DNA of 64,000 nt from positions 2,109,501-2,173,500 of the forward strand of contig NZ_CP071057.1 in NCBI RefSeq assembly GCF_017161425.1, given 5' to 3'. The notes beneath the pieces were generated by a model, which had not been told where the DNA came from, did no database searches, and worked only from the letters and a program-made list of their open reading frames with translations. Each line of letters begins with the position of its first letter. Within the stretch, counting starts at the first letter, position 1. Positions 18,178 to 25,483 of this stretch are shown here, piece after piece. Made by a program: the position numbers and the translations under genes. The stretch comes from Marinicauda algicola. GTDB taxonomy: Bacteria > Pseudomonadota > Alphaproteobacteria > Caulobacterales > Maricaulaceae.

Positions 18178-18211
18178 AGAAAAACCCCCGCTCCGGGTGG
18201 AGCGGGGGTCC
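18178..18211 (-). terminator. Attenuator terminator of the ilv-leu operon
   Basis: On the minus strand ACCCCCGCTCC (18209-18199) pairs with GGAGCGGGGGT (18194-18184): a perfect 11-bp stem with an ACCC tetraloop, followed by a T-rich run TTTTTCTTTG. It sits between the leader peptide stop and ilvC. The upstream 5' arm can pair alternatively with GGAGCGGCGG at 18257-18248 inside the leader peptide gene (9 of 10 bases), a ready-made antiterminator. Together these features are the classic transcription attenuator. Confidence 0.92.
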
Positions 18212-18236
18212 TGTGTGTCTGGTTTGATCGTTTCCG

Positions 18237-18359
18237 TCAGACAGGGGCCGCCGCTCCGGTTATGGAGGTAATAAGCACGACAAGAAGGACGAGCGTCGCC
18301 AGCGCGACGGCGGCGAGCCGTTCGCTGGGGTCGATCGCAAGAGTCTTCGTGTCGCGCAT
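18237..18359 (-). CDS. ilv-leu operon leader peptide
   Basis: A 40-residue open frame from the ATG at 18359, ending 26 bp before the attenuator stem. Its core [17 protein letters not shown] (about residues 19-35) holds five Leu, four Val counting Val18, and two Ile, so a ribosome translating it would pause when any branched-chain aminoacyl-tRNA is short. The run includes CTT, ATT and ATA codons that are uncommon in such a GC-rich genome, which should sharpen the stall. An AGGA sequence 11 bp upstream is a weak ribosome-binding site. The last codons (GGA GCG GCG) overlap the predicted antiterminator. No independent protein function is expected. Confidence 0.9.
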
Positions 18360-18674: not shown

Positions 18675-18821
18675 ATGACGGCGATGTCGCCGCTCGATCT
18701 CTGCGGAATTCACGGCGCCGGTGATCCGGCCCCGGCGCTCCCGTGCGCGCAGCGTGTCGCCACCATTACCGTGACGATCACCACCCTTCTCCCGAACGGG
18801 GGGCGGTACGGCACGGGCTGA
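18675..18821 (+). CDS. thrL: thr operon leader peptide
   Basis: A 48-residue frame preceded by a GGGAGA ribosome-binding site five bases before the ATG. Residues 29-37 read ATITVTITT: five Thr, two Ile and one Val in nine codons (18762-18785 for the core), closely like the Thr/Ile run of enterobacterial ThrL. It ends 30 bp before a terminator stem. A ribosome stalled on these codons would leave GGGGGGCGG (18798-18806) free to pair with the 5' arm of the terminator. The peptide itself is unlikely to have a function. Confidence 0.92.
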   Translation: MTAMSPLDLCGIHGAGDPAPALPCAQRVATITVTITTLLPNGGRYGTG

Positions 18822-18851
18822 GTTCACACTCGAAAGACAAACCCGATCCAG

Positions 18852-18884
18852 ACCCGCTCCCCGACCCCGGCGAGCGGGTTTTTT
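18852..18884 (+). terminator. Attenuator terminator of the thr operon
   Basis: ACCCGCTC (18852-18859) pairs with GAGCGGGT (18872-18879); the loop can add a three-pair inner stem, and six T residues follow (18879-18884). An alternative ten-base pairing, CGGGGGGCGG at 18797-18806 with CCGCTCCCCG at 18854-18863 (one T-G wobble), would destroy the terminator. Location between thrL and thrA completes a standard attenuation module. Confidence 0.92.
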
Positions 18885-18938: not shown

Positions 18939-20690
18939 ATGGCTTCCGCCCTTGCAGACCCCGAAAAGGCATCGCGCCTTAGCGTCATCAAATTCGGAGG
19001 TTCGGTGCTGACGTGCGAGACCGATTTCCGCGCCGCAGGCGCGGAGACCTATCGCCATATCCGTACCGGGGAGAAGGCCATCATCATCGTCTCCGCTATC
19101 GCAGGCGAGACCGACGCGCTGCTGCGCCAGGCCGAGGCGCTCGGCGGAAGCGCGGCCGACACCGCCCGCCTCGTGCGGCTCGGCGAATACCGCTCGGCCG
19201 CCCTGATGGGGCTGGAGCTGGCCCGGCTCGGCGTGCGTACCCGCGTGCTCGACCCCCACGAAATCGGTCTCGTGGCACAGGGCGATCCGCTCGACGCCGA
19301 CCTCAGCGCTCTCGATGAAGCCGCGCTCGAGAGAGCGCTGGACGATGCGGATGCGCTCGTCGTGCCGGGTTTCACCGCAGGGCACGCGGTCCACGGGGCG
19401 GCGACGCTGGGGCGCGGCGGCACCGATCTGACCGCGGTCTTCTTCGCCGCGCGCACCGGGGCCGACCGGGTGCGGCTGATCAAGGATGTCGATGGCGTGT
19501 ACAGCGAGGATCCGGCCGTCAATCCGAAGGCTGCCCGCTATGACGCGCTCGATTACGACGCGGCGCTCCAGGCCAGCCGCGGCCTGATCCAGCCCAAGGC
19601 GATCGAGGCTGCCCGCGCGGGCGGAGTCGTCATCGAGGTCGCAGCCATGGGAGCGGGCGCGGCGACGCGGATCGCACCGGGCCCGGCGAGCCCGGGCCGG
19701 CTGCGCCATCGCGGGCCGATGCGCGTCGCTCTGCTGGGCTGCGGCGCCGTGGGGTCGGGCGTGCTCGATTACCTGCGCGGCCATCCGGAGCTGTTCGAGC
19801 TGAACCCGGTGCTTGTGCGCACCCCTTCCAGGCGGCGCGACGATCCGCGGGCCGCCTTCACGGCCCTGATCGGCGAGGCCCTCGATGGCGGGCCCGACCT
19901 CGTCGTGGAATTGCTCGGCGGGGCCGATGGCCCGGCCGCCATCATGCAGGGCGCGCTGTCGGCCGGCGCCCGCGTCGTCACCGCCAACAAGGCCGCGGTC
20001 GCGCGCCATTACGACGCCCTGCACGCCGGCGGCGAGTCCGGCCGCCTGGCCTATTCGGCCGCGGTCGGCGGCGGGGTCCCGGTGATCGAGCACGTCGCGG
20101 CACTGAAATCGGCAGGCCTCGCCTCGATCGAGGGCGTCATGAACGGGACGGCGAACTTCATCCTGGACAGGCTCGCCGCCGGTAGCGAATTCGGCGATGC
20201 GCTCGCCGAGGCCCAGCGCCTGGGCTTCGCCGAAGCCGATCCAAGCGCGGATGTGGAGGGCCACGACGCCGCCGACAAGCTGTCCATCCTGATCCGCGAG
20301 GCCTTCGGCGTCGCGCTGCCGCCCGATGACATCACCAAACAGTCCCTGAGCGAGGTCTCTGCCGACAAAGCCGCCGAGGCGGCCGCCAGGGGGCTCGTCT
20401 ACAAGCAGATCGGCCGCTGCCGCCTCGCAGGCGGCCGCGTCGAGGCGTCGGTGAGCGTCGAAACGGTTCCCGCCGGTCATCCCCTTGCCGGTGCGCGAAA
20501 CGAGGAGAACCGCTTCGTGCTCACCGATGCCGCCGGCCGGACCCGCGCGCTCTACGGCAAGGGCGCCGGACGCTGGCCGACGGCCGCCGCGGTATTCGCC
20601 GATATCATGGACATGCGCCGGGCCTGGTCGGGCGACGAGCGCGTCCAGGGGCGCGCAACCGTACGCGCCGCAGCGCTGAAATCGGCCTGA
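18939..20690 (+). CDS. thrA: Bifunctional aspartokinase / homoserine dehydrogenase lacking ACT domains
   Basis: 583 residues, against about 820 for E. coli ThrA. Residues about 10-225 are an aspartokinase catalytic domain: KFGGSVLT at the start, GEYRSAALM, then GRGGTDLTAVFFAARTGADR and DVDGVYSEDP. The chain then runs almost directly into homoserine dehydrogenase (MRVALLGCGAVGSGV at about 234), with NKAA, SAAVGGGVPVIEH, GVMNGTANFILDRL and the catalytic-lysine region EGHDAADKLSIL. The two ACT domains that bind threonine in ordinary ThrA are missing. The enzyme would therefore be expected to be insensitive to threonine, leaving control to the attenuator just upstream. No frameshift is visible. 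A second aspartokinase for lysine/methionine probably lies elsewhere. Confidence 0.93.
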   Translation: MASALADPEKASRLSVIKFGGSVLTCETDFRAAGAETYRHIRTGEKAIIIVSAIAGETDALLRQAEALGGSAADTARLVRLGEYRSAALMGLELARLGVRTRVLDPHEIGLVAQGDPLDADLSALDEAALERALDDADALVVPGFTAGHAVHGAATLGRGGTDLTAVFFAARTGADRVRLIKDVDGVYSEDPAVNPKAARYDALDYDAALQASRGLIQPKAIEAARAGGVVIEVAAMGAGAATRIAPGPASPGRLRHRGPMRVALLGCGAVGSGVLDYLRGHPELFELNPVLVRTPSRRRDDPRAAFTALIGEALDGGPDLVVELLGGADGPAAIMQGALSAGARVVTANKAAVARHYDALHAGGESGRLAYSAAVGGGVPVIEHVAALKSAGLASIEGVMNGTANFILDRLAAGSEFGDALAEAQRLGFAEADPSADVEGHDAADKLSILIREAFGVALPPDDITKQSLSEVSADKAAEAAARGLVYKQIGRCRLAGGRVEASVSVETVPAGHPLAGARNEENRFVLTDAAGRTRALYGKGAGRWPTAAAVFADIMDMRRAWSGDERVQGRATVRAAALKSA

Positions 20691-20701: not shown

Positions 20702-21646
20702 ATGATGCAGGCCCGAGCCAGCGCCCCGGCGAGTATCGGCAATGTAGCCGTGGGCTTCGATGTCCTTGGCCAGGCGTTCGACGCGGTGCGCGACACCGTC
20801 ACCGCAACCCGCGAAGACGCGCCGGGCGTGAGGCTGGGCACTGTGACCGGCCTGGTCGCCACGCTGCCCGCCGAGCCCGGCCGCAATACCGCGCTCGCCG
20901 CCGCGCAGGCCCTGCTGAATGCGGCCGGAGCCCGGTTTGGCGTCCGCCTGTCGATCCAGAAAGGCGTGCCGCTGAGCGCGGGTATGGGCGGATCTGCCTC
21001 CTCGGCCGTGGCCGCCGCCGCTGCGGTCAATGCCCTGCTGGACCCCCCGTTCGCAACACAGGACCTGCTCGGCTTCGCGCTCGAGGGCGAGCGCGCCTCG
21101 GCCGATCCCCCACCCTGGGACAATGTCATGGCGAGCCTTCTTGGCGGGCTCGTCATCGCGGCCCGCACCGAGCCCGCCCTGGTGCAGCGCATGCCCGTTC
21201 CGAAAGGCCTCGTCGCGGTGCTGCTCCATCCCGATGCCCGCATCGAGACGCGCCATGCGCGCGGTGTCCTGAAACCCAGCGTCGCGATGAACATCGCCGT
21301 CGAACACGCCCGAGCGATCAGCGCGTTCACGCTGGGCTGCGCCACCAATGACCGCGCTCTGATCCGGGCCGGCATGGAGGACCGGCTGGTCGAGCCGCAG
21401 CGTCGTTTCCTCTTGCCCGAGCTTGCCGCGGTAAAACGCGCCGCAGTCGGTGCCGGAGCGCTGGGTTGTTCGTTTTCCGGTTCCGGTCCCTCGGTTTTTG
21501 CGTGGACCGAAGCGGGCGATGCCGACAGGGTACAGGCCGCGATGGGCTCGGCGTTCACCGCCGCGGGCCGCGCCTTCACGCCCTATCGCGCCGCGCTCGA
21601 CAGCCCGGGCGTTCGGCTCGAGCCGATCGAGGAGGTGGTGGCGTGA
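20702..21646 (+). CDS. thrB: Homoserine kinase
   Basis: GHMP-superfamily kinase making O-phosphohomoserine. 314 residues; the ATP-binding loop is VPLSAGMGGSASSAVAAAAA, and the C-terminal GALGCSFSGSGPSVFA motif is also typical. It starts 11 bp after thrA with GGGAGAAG as ribosome-binding site and overlaps thrC by GTGA. This is the GHMP form, not the choline-kinase-like ThrB2 form common in alphaproteobacteria. Confidence 0.95.
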   Translation: MMQARASAPASIGNVAVGFDVLGQAFDAVRDTVTATREDAPGVRLGTVTGLVATLPAEPGRNTALAAAQALLNAAGARFGVRLSIQKGVPLSAGMGGSASSAVAAAAAVNALLDPPFATQDLLGFALEGERASADPPPWDNVMASLLGGLVIAARTEPALVQRMPVPKGLVAVLLHPDARIETRHARGVLKPSVAMNIAVEHARAISAFTLGCATNDRALIRAGMEDRLVEPQRRFLLPELAAVKRAAVGAGALGCSFSGSGPSVFAWTEAGDADRVQAAMGSAFTAAGRAFTPYRAALDSPGVRLEPIEEVVA

Positions 21647-22944
21647 AGTTCGTATCGACGCGAGGAGGATGCAGCCCCGCCTCGCTCAGCGACGCGATCC
21701 GTGCCGGACAGGCGCCCGATGGCGGGCTTTATATGCCCGAACGGATGCCCGAAGACCCGCTGGGCGGTCTTGCCGGCGAGGCCGGGCTGGTCAATGTCGC
21801 GGAGCGTCTGCTCGCACCCTTCTTCGCCGGAGACCGGCTGGAGGCGGAACTCGCCGACCTCTGCTCGCAGGCGTATGACTTCGATGTCCCGCTTTCGCGG
21901 CCCGATCCGGCACGCGGCGGGCTTCACGTGCTTGAGCTGTTTCACGGCCCGACCGGCGCATTCAAGGATTTCGGCGCCCGCTTCCTGATGGCCTGTCTCG
22001 ATCTTCTGGCCGAACCAGGAGCCCCGCTTACCGTACTCGCGGCGACCTCCGGGGATACGGGGGGCGCGGCGGGCGGCGCGGCGCAGGGCCGGCCCGGCGT
22101 GCGTGCGGTGATCCTGTTCGCCAAGGACCGCGTTTCCCCGTTCCAGCGTCATCAACTGACCTGCTGGGACGAGCCTGTAGCCGCGCTCGAGATCGAGGGC
22201 GATTTCGACGCCTGCCAGGCCCTGGTCAAGCAAGCCTTCGCCGACCGGGCCCTGAGCCAGCGCCACCGGCTGACGAGCGCGAACTCGATCAACCTGGCAA
22301 GATTATTGCCCCAGAGCGCCTATCTGGCCTGGGCCGCGCGGCGGGTTTTCGCAGAGACCGGCATGGCGCCGGGCCTGATCCTTCCCACCGGCAATCTCGG
22401 CCACGGCGTGGCGGCCCTGTTCGCGCGTGCCATGGGCGCGCCGCTCGGACCCCTGATCCTGGCCACCAACGCCAATGCGACGCTCTCCGACTGGATGGCC
22501 ACGGGCGCGTATCGCCCGCGCGCCTCGGTGCAGACTCTGGCCAACGCGATGGATGTCGGCGCGCCGAGCAATTTCGAACGGCTGACCCGTTTCGCCCCGC
22601 ATGGACGCCAGGTGCGCGTCGAACGCGTCGACGACGACGCGATCAGGGCGCGTATCAGAGCTGATTTCGAACGCTTCGGCCAGGTCTGGTGCCCCCACTC
22701 GGCTACCGCGGCCGAGGCGCATGCCCGCCTCTCGCCGCGCGAGCGCGAGACCCGGCCTTGGATTCTCGCCGCCACCGCTCACCCCTTCAAGTTTGCAGAA
22801 ACGGTCGAGCCGCTCATCGGCCGGGCGGTCGAGCCAAGCCCCGCGCTTGCGGCAATCGCCGACCGGACGAGCCGGGCGTTCACCTGCCCGGCCGATCTCG
22901 ACGCCCTGGCCGGCTATCTCGACACACTGACGGAGACTGTCTGA
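21643..22944 (+). CDS. thrC: Threonine synthase
   Basis: PLP enzyme converting O-phosphohomoserine to threonine. 433 residues from a GTG at 21643 that overlaps the thrB stop; the mature start KFVSTRGG and PDGGLYMPE are typical. The PLP-lysine is in [13 protein letters not shown], and the glycine loop is [10 protein letters not shown]. The stop overlaps the ilvD ATG (TGATG), which couples threonine synthesis to the isoleucine/valine pathway. Confidence 0.95.
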
Positions 22945-24632
22945 TGGCGAACACGACTCGTCCCTCCCACGCCCTGATCCGCGGCAATGCCCGCGCCCCG
23001 GCGCGCGCCATGCTCCGTGCAGCGGGCTTCGACGACGCGGCCATGGCCCGCCCTATGGTCGCGGTGGTGAACACCTGGACCGACGTGACACCCTGTAACA
23101 TGCATCTGCGCGGGCTCGCCGAGCACGCGCGGGACGGGATCGAGGAGGCGGGAGGCACGCCGGTCGAGTTCAACACGATCGTGGTCACCGACGGCATCGC
23201 CATGGGCACAGAGGGCATGCGCGCCTCGCTGATGAGCCGCGAGACGATCGCCGATTCCGCCGAGCTGGCCGTGCGCGGCCATAGCCTGGACGCGGTGCTC
23301 TTCCTGGTCGGATGCGACAAGACGCTGCCCGGAGCGGCGATGGCTGCGGCGCGGCTCAACCTGCCCAGCGTCATCCTCTATGGCGGGTCGATCATGCCGG
23401 GCCGGCGAGGACAGAGAGACCTGACCGTGCAGGATGTGTTCGAGGCCGTCGGGGCCTGCGCGGCCGGGCGGATTTCCCGGGACGAGCTCGCCGAGGTGGA
23501 AAAGGCCGCCTGTCCGGGGGCCGGCGCGTGCGGCGGCCAGTTCACCGCAAACACCATGGCTCTGGCGCTGACCGTGCTCGGCCTGTCGCCGATGGGTCTG
23601 AACGATGTGCCGGCGGTCCATCCGGGCAAGCCGGACGCCGCCAAGGCGGCCGGGCGCGCGGTGATGGCGGCGCTGCAGGCCGATTGCCGGCCGCGCGCCC
23701 TGATCACGGCGCAGGCGCTGAAGAACGCCGCGGCGGCCGTTACGGCGACGGCCGGATCGACCAATGCGGTGCTGCACCTGCTCGCCATCGCGCGCGAAGC
23801 CGGGGTCGCGGACAGCGAGTTCGACATCGACCAGTTCGACGCGATTTCGCGCGCCACGCCGGTGATCGCCGACCTCAAGCCGGGCGGGCGCTACATGGCC
23901 CCGGACATGAGCGCGGCCGGCGGTACGCGCCTGCTGGTCGAACGCATGCGCGAAGGCGGGCTTCTGGGCGACGCACCCACAGTCACCGGCAAATCGCTCT
24001 TCGAGGAAGCCGGCACGGCCGAGGAGGCGGCGGGCCAGGGCGTGATCCGCCCGCTCGACAGGCCGGTCAAGGCGCGCGGCGGATTCGGCGTGCTGTACGG
24101 CGATCTCGCGCCCGAAGGCTGCGTGGCCAAGCTGGCCGGCCACGACCGCCTCGCCTTCGAGGGACCGGCCCGCGTATTCGACAGCGAGGAGGCGGCCTTC
24201 GAGGCGATCACCCGGGGAAAGATCGAGAAGGGCGATGTCGTCGTGATCCGCCATGAAGGTCCCGCCGGCGGACCCGGCATGCGGGAAATGCTGGCCGTGA
24301 CCGCGGCCATCCAGGGCGCCGGTCTCGGCGACGATGTCGCGCTGGTCACCGATGGGCGCTTCTCCGGGGCGACCTATGGCTTCATGGTCGGCCACATCGC
24401 ACCCGAGGCCGCACGCGGCGGCCCGATCGCCTTCCTGCGGTCGGGCGACCGCGTGAGGATCGATGTCGAGGCCCGGCGCATCGACACCGATGCCGATCTC
24501 GCCGCGCGCGCCGCGGAGGGGTTCACCGCGCCGGCGCCGAAATACACCCACGGTGCGTACGCAAAATACGCCGCCCTGGTCGGTTCGGCCTCGCACGGCG
24601 CATTGACCTCCTTTCCGTTCGAGGTGCGGTGA
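22944..24632 (+). CDS. ilvD: Dihydroxy-acid dehydratase
   Basis: Third step of Ile/Val synthesis, and so a partner of IlvGMCE encoded on the opposite arm. 562 residues. Cluster-ligand cysteines appear in [20 protein letters not shown] and [15 protein letters not shown]; the C-terminal [20 protein letters not shown] is intact. It belongs to the short (about 560 residue) IlvD branch. Translation is coupled to thrC and to the following kinase by overlapping start/stop codons. Because it sits in the thr transcript, it would respond to the Thr/Ile attenuator and not the ilv-leu one. Confidence 0.96.
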
Positions 24633-25483
24633 TGACGACACAGCCGCTGCGCGGCGCGCAGATGTTCCGGGCCGCGCTCGACCGGACCGCGCGTCTGGTG
24701 ATCAAGATCGGGTCGAACCAGCTGGTCGATCCGGCAAACGGTCTGCCCAGAGCGAACATTTTCGAATCCCTTGCCGCCGATATCGCCGCTCTTCGCCAGC
24801 GTGGGGCAAAATGCGTTCTGGTCACCTCGGGCGCCGTGGCGTTCGGGCGACACAGGCTCGGCCTGCCGATGTGCCGCGCCCTGGCGCTCGACGAGAAGCA
24901 GGCCGCTGCCGCGGTGGGTCAGCTACTGCTGGCCGAGGCTTGGGCCCGCGCATTCTCGCAGCACGACATCCTGACCGGCCAGGCCCTGCTTTGTCCCGAG
25001 GACACCGAGCATCCCGTCCGGTTACGCAATGCGAGCAACACGTTCGAGCGATTGTTCCAGCTCGGCGTCCTGCCGCTCGTCAACGAGAACGATACCGTTG
25101 CCACCGAAGAGCTGCGGTATGGCGACAATGACTGTCTGGCCGCGCGGCTCACATCGCTGGTCCGCGCCGAGGGGCTGATCCTCCTGTCGGACATAGACGG
25201 GCTCTACACCAAGGATCCGTCGGTCTCACCCGACGCCAGCCCGATCGAGCACGTTCCATTTTCCGCGCTGGCCGGGCTGGATTGCGGCGGACCGCCCAGA
25301 GCCGGCGGGCCTGGCACCGGAGGGATGGCGAGCAAGCTCGATGCGGCACGAATCGCCGTGGCGTCAGGGTGCTGGGCCGTCATTGCGCGGGCCAGTGACC
25401 GGCCGCTCGGCGCGCCTCGCCAGACCATGCGCCTGACTTTCTTCGCACCCGATGCGGCGATCGCCAACGCGGGGCGCATCTAG
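24632..25483 (+). CDS. proB: Glutamate 5-kinase-like protein without PUA domain
   Basis: 283 residues consisting only of the amino-acid-kinase fold: VIKIGSNQLV, VTSGAVAFGRHRLGL, EKQAAAAVGQ, NENDTVATEELRYGDND, LLSDIDGLYTKDP and GTGGMASKLDAARIA all match ProB. The C-terminal PUA domain of ordinary ProB (about 370 residues) is absent. ProB makes glutamyl-5-phosphate for proline; its place at the end of a threonine/isoleucine operon is odd. Start chosen at 24632 (TGATG overlap with ilvD). It might be the only ProB or a paralogue with another substrate; no proA is next to it. Confidence 0.8.
   Translation: MTTQPLRGAQMFRAALDRTARLVIKIGSNQLVDPANGLPRANIFESLAADIAALRQRGAKCVLVTSGAVAFGRHRLGLPMCRALALDEKQAAAAVGQLLLAEAWARAFSQHDILTGQALLCPEDTEHPVRLRNASNTFERLFQLGVLPLVNENDTVATEELRYGDNDCLAARLTSLVRAEGLILLSDIDGLYTKDPSVSPDASPIEHVPFSALAGLDCGGPPRAGGPGTGGMASKLDAARIAVASGCWAVIARASDRPLGAPRQTMRLTFFAPDAAIANAGRI

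Follow-up and report, generated by a model that had tools for sequence, protein, structure and literature searches.

Allosteric feedback is classically illustrated by aspartokinase-homoserine dehydrogenase (AK-HSD). The 64,000 nt stretch of the Marinicauda algicola genome that we analyzed (NZ_CP071057.1, positions 2,109,501 to 2,173,500; hereafter the window) contains a thrA-thrB-thrC-ilvD operon whose first gene encodes a compact AK-HSD, raising the questions of whether the enzyme lacks the regulatory ACT domains, where it came from and how the pathway would respond to its end products. The original prediction, made from the sequence alone, was of a ThrA that has lost both ACT domains, with attenuation taking over control. 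The reading we favor, at a probability of roughly 0.7, is that the protein is an active ACT-less AK-HSD derived from an independent fusion, in an operon governed mainly by Thr/Ile attenuation.

Domain architecture of the compact AK-HSD

Features of the thr operon and its leader in the window (positions are those of the window)
Feature	Position	Strand	Details
thr leader peptide	18675..18821	+	48 aa, MTAMSPLDLCGIHGAGDPAPALPCAQRVATITVTITTLLPNGGRYGTG; 7 T/I in 12 residues, shuffle p 0.005
Leader control codons	18762..18785	+	T I T V T I T T
Predicted antiterminator	18797..18863	+	Base pairing of 18797-18806 with the 5´ arm of the terminator (18854-18863)
Intrinsic terminator (attenuator)	18851..18884	+	Hairpin GACCCGCTC...GAGCGGGTTTTTT; dG about -21 kcal/mol
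Compact bifunctional AK-HSD	18939..20690	+	583 aa, ACT-less
Aspartokinase (AK) half	18966..19685	+	About residues 10-249; Pfam, structural alignment to 5yei
AK/HSD junction	19686..19712	+	About residues 250-258, ~8 residues; model, structural alignment, relatives
Homoserine dehydrogenase (HSD) half	19713..20627	+	About residues 258-563; Pfam, PRK06349 match, 6dzs alignment
thrB, homoserine kinase (GHMP family)	20702..21646	+	11 nt downstream of the AK-HSD gene
thrC, threonine synthase	21643..22944	+	4-nt overlap with thrB
ilvD, dihydroxy-acid dehydratase (isoleucine/valine)	22941..24632	+	Overlaps thrC; assigned by sequence and conserved position

The gene is intact, running in a single frame from ATG to stop. 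A Pfam search of the 583 aa protein returned AA_kinase at residues 15-232 (E 1.5e-33), NAD_binding_3 at 267-363 and Homoserine_dh at 382-557 (E 7.2e-49), with no match to any ACT model down to E = 1. Extending the domain search to the homologues gave the same picture: kinase and HSD domains were present in 46/46 family members scanned (the window protein and 45 relatives), and ACT was found in none. The search itself works, since E. coli ThrA and LysC, as well as the LysC and AK-LysA fusion of the same genome, all gave ACT matches. E. coli MetL, however, gave no ACT match despite having ~180 residues in that region (285-464), so a negative Pfam result is insufficient by itself and the structure has to decide.

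An AlphaFold model built with the 46 sequences was of high confidence (pLDDT 92.7, pTM 0.91), and its structural matches to solved enzymes span residues 10-249 and 258-563. In the alignment with the P. aeruginosa AK 5yei, residues 13-252 are superimposed (Z 33.4, rmsd 1.7, 237 aligned) and the match ends at residue 255 of 5yei, ahead of its ACT domains; in the alignment with the HSD 6dzs, residues 259-567 are superimposed (Z 37.9, rmsd 1.8, 307 aligned) and the match ends at residue 332 of 6dzs, again ahead of ACT. Both the model and the alignments leave ~8 residues between the halves, too short for an ACT fold, and none of the relatives carries an insertion at this point. A cryptic ACT fold in the linker (residues 220-240 in the original prediction) can accordingly be ruled out. 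The C-terminal ACT domain typical of PRK06349-type HSDs is also missing, as the match stops at profile position 323/430. These results confirm an AK-HSD without ACT on either enzyme, in which an AK half is joined directly to HSD to give 583 residues in place of the 820 of E. coli ThrA, as had been predicted. We also considered a separate ACT subunit encoded in the thr operon and saw none; the sole ACT protein nearby is the IlvN-like subunit of a divergent operon. In AKs generally, dimerization usually involves the ACT domains.

Given that neither enzyme of the fusion carries ACT, the usual allosteric route is closed to threonine, and the compact AK-HSD is predicted to be feedback-resistant. 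The genome encodes two HSDs in total, neither with a Pfam ACT match, and threonine thus cannot act on the HSD step via ACT. The second HSD (locus L009, G000:C1:1966830-1970363) is short and ACT-less and overlaps a metX-like gene; no Rfam riboswitch was found at that locus. Two other AKs are present, LysC and AK-LysA, both of which are ACT-bearing, and LysC may still respond to an end product. It is conceivable, though unlikely, that threonine or some other end product still inhibits the ACT-less enzyme by binding within the HSD half, at the active site or at a subunit interface. Two-domain HSDs can bind inhibitors without ACT, as illustrated by the cysteine-bound 5x9d among the structural matches, and inhibition of ThrB or of the ACT-bearing LysC could preserve some end-product control of flux elsewhere. 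Inhibition of the fusion itself is disfavored by the predicted structure, which contains no recognizable regulatory domain, and by the MetL enzymes, which give no ACT match and are reported to be uninhibited (PMC12925634).

Catalytic motifs, distribution and origin of the fusion

The claim that the catalytic motifs of both halves are intact held up. The AK half retains K18 (in KFGG), S52, T58, E83, and R159 and D163 (in LGRGGTD), residues that align to those of the active sites of the AKs from C. glutamicum and P. aeruginosa, and it has the kinase domain with AK active-site motifs that marks the LysC class (PRK06635/TIGR00656). The HSD half retains N350 and K351, G377-379, N402, G403 and T404, E432, D434, D443 and K447; the roles of these conserved residues are presumably those known for the two families in general. 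Within the clade of the window protein, dN/dS of the AK half was 0.08-0.34 among the closest pairs, ratios that are rough because many dS values are high, and dN was lower for the AK half than for the HSD half in 32/36 pairs. On the strength of this conservation and purifying selection, the two halves both seem to be functional enzymes: the AK half would phosphorylate aspartate, the HSD half would reduce aspartate semialdehyde to homoserine, and the bifunctional enzyme would feed threonine and isoleucine synthesis.

A related lineage shows what a degenerate AK half looks like. In other genera of the same family (loci L108-L113 and L153-L171), NFGHS replaces KFGGS in 25/25 sampled proteins, with loss of the catalytic lysine, and the LGRGG arginine is lost in 24/25. 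These proteins keep intact HSD motifs and a strongly constrained AK half (dN/dS of about 0.02-0.09 for the closest pairs); the arrangement resembles a working HSD to which a conserved pseudo-aspartokinase is fused. By analogy, the AK half in the window could be structural or vestigial, with HSD alone active and aspartyl phosphate supplied by LysC and AK-LysA. Such a loss of function would fit with the presence of two other AKs in the genome and with the sister lineage, where the AK half is conserved despite the missing lysine and arginine. We judge it very unlikely for the window protein, given that its clade has kept all six of the AK motif residues listed above and constrains the AK half more tightly than the HSD half.

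The architecture, which had seemed unusual, is no one-off. Among 398 genomes of the order, 119 gave a match at E <= 1e-58, and removing two that are HSD only (G469 and G479) leaves the fusion in about 117, isolates and metagenome-assembled genomes (MAGs) alike. In a separate scan, the matches were from Oceanicaulis, Marinicauda, Glycocaulis, Maricaulis, Woodsholea, Sphingomonas, Parvularculaceae and two Phycisphaerae MAGs. In a class-wide even sample of 385 genomes, the window's own genome was the only one with a full-length match among the matches listed, and in a plasmid search the best match had 37% identity, spread over two separate genes. One Oceanicaulis MAG contig (JANQMI010000031.1) carries two different fused AK-HSD genes (L025 and L058), one near thrBC and the other from the divergent group. 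That the compact gene is a sequencing or assembly artefact has a practically negligible probability, as the same architecture recurs across the order and relatives 69-73% identical to the window protein have the same length; these relatives, the distribution and the purifying selection likewise rule out a pseudogene.

How the fusion arose is a separate question. The best family models were those of a LysC-class AK (PRK06635) for the kinase half and of an unfused HSD (PRK06349) for the HSD half. The HSD model scored above its cut-off (244.9 bits vs 205), whereas the ThrA (NF006959/PRK09436; 195.1 bits vs 726) and MetL (NF007003/PRK09466; 137 bits vs 582) models fell far below theirs; the LysC-class models PRK06635 and TIGR00656 also missed their full-length cut-offs (129 bits vs 376 and 127 vs 402). 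Kinase length points the same way, the domain being ~225 residues in the fusion and in the LysC class vs ~270 in the E. coli ThrA/MetL/LysC group; the ThrA/MetL/LysC-III kinases carry an extra ~45 residues that are missing from the AK half of the fusion. The AK tree united E. coli ThrA, MetL and LysC with AK-LysA in one group (100/100) that leaves the compact fusion family outside, although several long branches meet in this tree and the independent fusion is thus supported but unproven. The HSD half is nearest to unfused two-domain HSDs, and unfused short HSDs ahead of metX fall among the fused ones in the HSD tree; this tree has no outgroup, so that E. coli ThrA is not placeable and closeness to ThrA vs ACT-bearing HSDs cannot be read from it.

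These sequence comparisons bear on the original prediction that the protein is a ThrA with lost ACT domains. A shortened E. coli-type ThrA would account for the domain order and the position ahead of thrBC, for a Thr/Ile leader like that of E. coli, and is compatible with the HSD tree. We nonetheless regard a deletion of the ACT region as highly improbable, since the AK tree places ThrA and MetL beside E. coli LysC and AK-LysA and apart from the fusion, since those kinases are longer, and since the ThrA model scores so poorly. Because the sequence models, kinase length and AK tree all favor an independent fusion, the protein is probably not an E. coli-type ThrA stripped of its ACT domains; instead, the family looks like an uncatalogued fusion that arose independently from a LysC-class kinase domain and a two-domain HSD.

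The thr leader and the proposed allocation of the fusion to a pathway

The original prediction that attenuation takes over control is supported to the extent that a conserved putative Thr/Ile attenuator precedes the gene. The 48-codon leader, which contains the run …ATITVTITT… and terminates in ATITVTITTLLPNGGRYGTG, is followed by an intrinsic terminator. For 46 fused loci, we compared leaders with dinucleotide shuffles (threshold p <= 0.015), defining thrBC-linked loci as those where thrB and thrC follow the fusion gene. A leader richer in Thr/Ile than the shuffles was found in 24/25 thrBC-linked loci vs 2/21 others (Mann-Whitney p 9e-8, with loci that are related and hence non-independent). 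The leader peptides vary in sequence and length across loci but retain the Thr/Ile run. The terminator was present in 28/28 loci examined, and an alternative antiterminator was predicted in 25/28, modestly above shuffles at individual loci; in the window, 11 bases of the arm are paired upstream and 6/100 shuffles were equally good. The Rfam thr-leader model had no match upstream of the gene, only sub-threshold chance matches.

These features suggest a mechanism in which end-product control is exerted mainly at transcription. A shortage of charged tRNA-Thr or tRNA-Ile would stall the ribosome at the TITVTITT codons of the leader, and the antiterminator would then form and the operon be transcribed; when both charged tRNAs are plentiful, the terminator would form instead.

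We also noted other features around the operon. A 40 aa leader peptide rich in Leu/Val/Ile (18237-18359, minus strand) belongs to the divergent ilvC-ilvB-ilvN-leuA operon; together with a minus-strand GC-rich hairpin and its T run at about 18185-18215, it probably forms a branched-chain attenuator. At the other end, a gene for a 284 aa ProB-like glutamate 5-kinase (24629-25483, plus strand), with AA_kinase as the sole Pfam domain, ends the thr-ilvD operon; a second ProB-like gene, a 402 aa frame, is located elsewhere in the genome (L002).

Other members of the family are associated with methionine genes. In a Sphingomonadales MAG (L059:4800-7700), metX lies downstream of the AK-HSD gene, and the next gene, read from its start, is likely of the cystathionine gamma-synthase type. 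The leader of this AK-HSD gene, MTAMMMMMTAM, has 7 Met in 12 residues (p 0.002), and its terminator is near-identical to the thr terminator of the window. SAM riboswitches (RF00162 or RF00521) accompany metX genes located close to many other family members. This Met leader and the metX and SAM-riboswitch neighbors suggest that the branch is allotted by RNA and neighbors: whether this AK-HSD type serves Thr/Ile or Met seems to depend on the upstream RNA and gene context, with one clear Met case. At two loci (L100 and L103), the fused genes are away from thrBC yet have Thr/Ile leaders, and are divergent from a metX gene bearing a SAM riboswitch. A broader proposal, which we put forward only tentatively, is of an order-level lineage with an independent, sensor-less AK-HSD whose pathway is set by the upstream RNA, and of a sister lineage whose kinase half is a conserved pseudo-aspartokinase, probably with a newly acquired non-catalytic role.

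The locus thus offers a natural, widespread AK-HSD without the allosteric modules, in a genome without any ACT-bearing HSD. The system would allow a direct test of whether attenuation alone can balance an amino-acid pathway, and the enzyme is a candidate feedback-resistant AK-HSD for amino-acid production.

Comparison with known systems

Several components of this arrangement were known beforehand: HSDs with two domains and no ACT (PMC9728202), and both LysC2 of V. natriegens, an AK reported to lack ACT, and uninhibited MetL enzymes (PMC12925634). For a compact AK-HSD lacking both ACT and the linker region, we found no description in the open-access literature searched, which covers part of the journals, in agreement with the original prediction that no such architecture is well described. 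The protein also exposes an annotation gap, as the architecture is covered by none of the NCBIfam models, and the sole one scoring above its cut-off names the protein homoserine dehydrogenase.

The nearest relatives of each half are found among monofunctional enzymes. The LysC-class AKs (PRK06635, TIGR00656) have the same kinase length and supply the best AK models, and the AK half is 32% identical to the LysC of the same genome, but LysC has a C-terminal ACT pair where the compact fusion has HSD. Two-domain HSDs, such as that of Thermus thermophilus (2ejw, Z 37.4 against the HSD half) and that of the genome's own Hom-MetX pair (46% identical to the HSD half), have the same fold and the same end point but are unfused, whereas in the compact protein HSD is fused to a kinase. 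The stand-alone AKs of Elusimicrobiota (L082-L089) are about 245-250 aa and, like the AK half of the fusion, without ACT (AA_kinase was the only Pfam domain of L084, with no ACT). Here the AK is a separate gene, adjoining an HSD gene in L082, and its grouping with the compact fusion family in the AK tree is weakly supported (78/69).

Among bifunctional enzymes, MetL of E. coli and Vibrio is also an AK-HSD without recognizable ACT. MetL of E. coli and V. natriegens has been reported not to be inhibited by end products and to be controlled at expression (PMC12925634). MetL keeps about 180 residues between kinase and HSD (285-464), a region that the compact fusion lacks, and has a kinase of the ThrA/LysC-III group, whereas the AK half of the compact fusion falls outside.

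With E. coli ThrA, the compact protein has in common the order of AK then HSD in one chain and the position as first gene of a thrABC operon. The E. coli thr operon likewise has a Thr/Ile leader peptide and attenuator. The fusion differs in having no ACT pair between the halves, in its length (583 vs 820 aa), in its shorter kinase domain and in the placement of its AK half elsewhere in the AK tree, where the long branches keep the position from being beyond doubt. The compact fusion suggests that AK-HSD fusions have arisen more than once.
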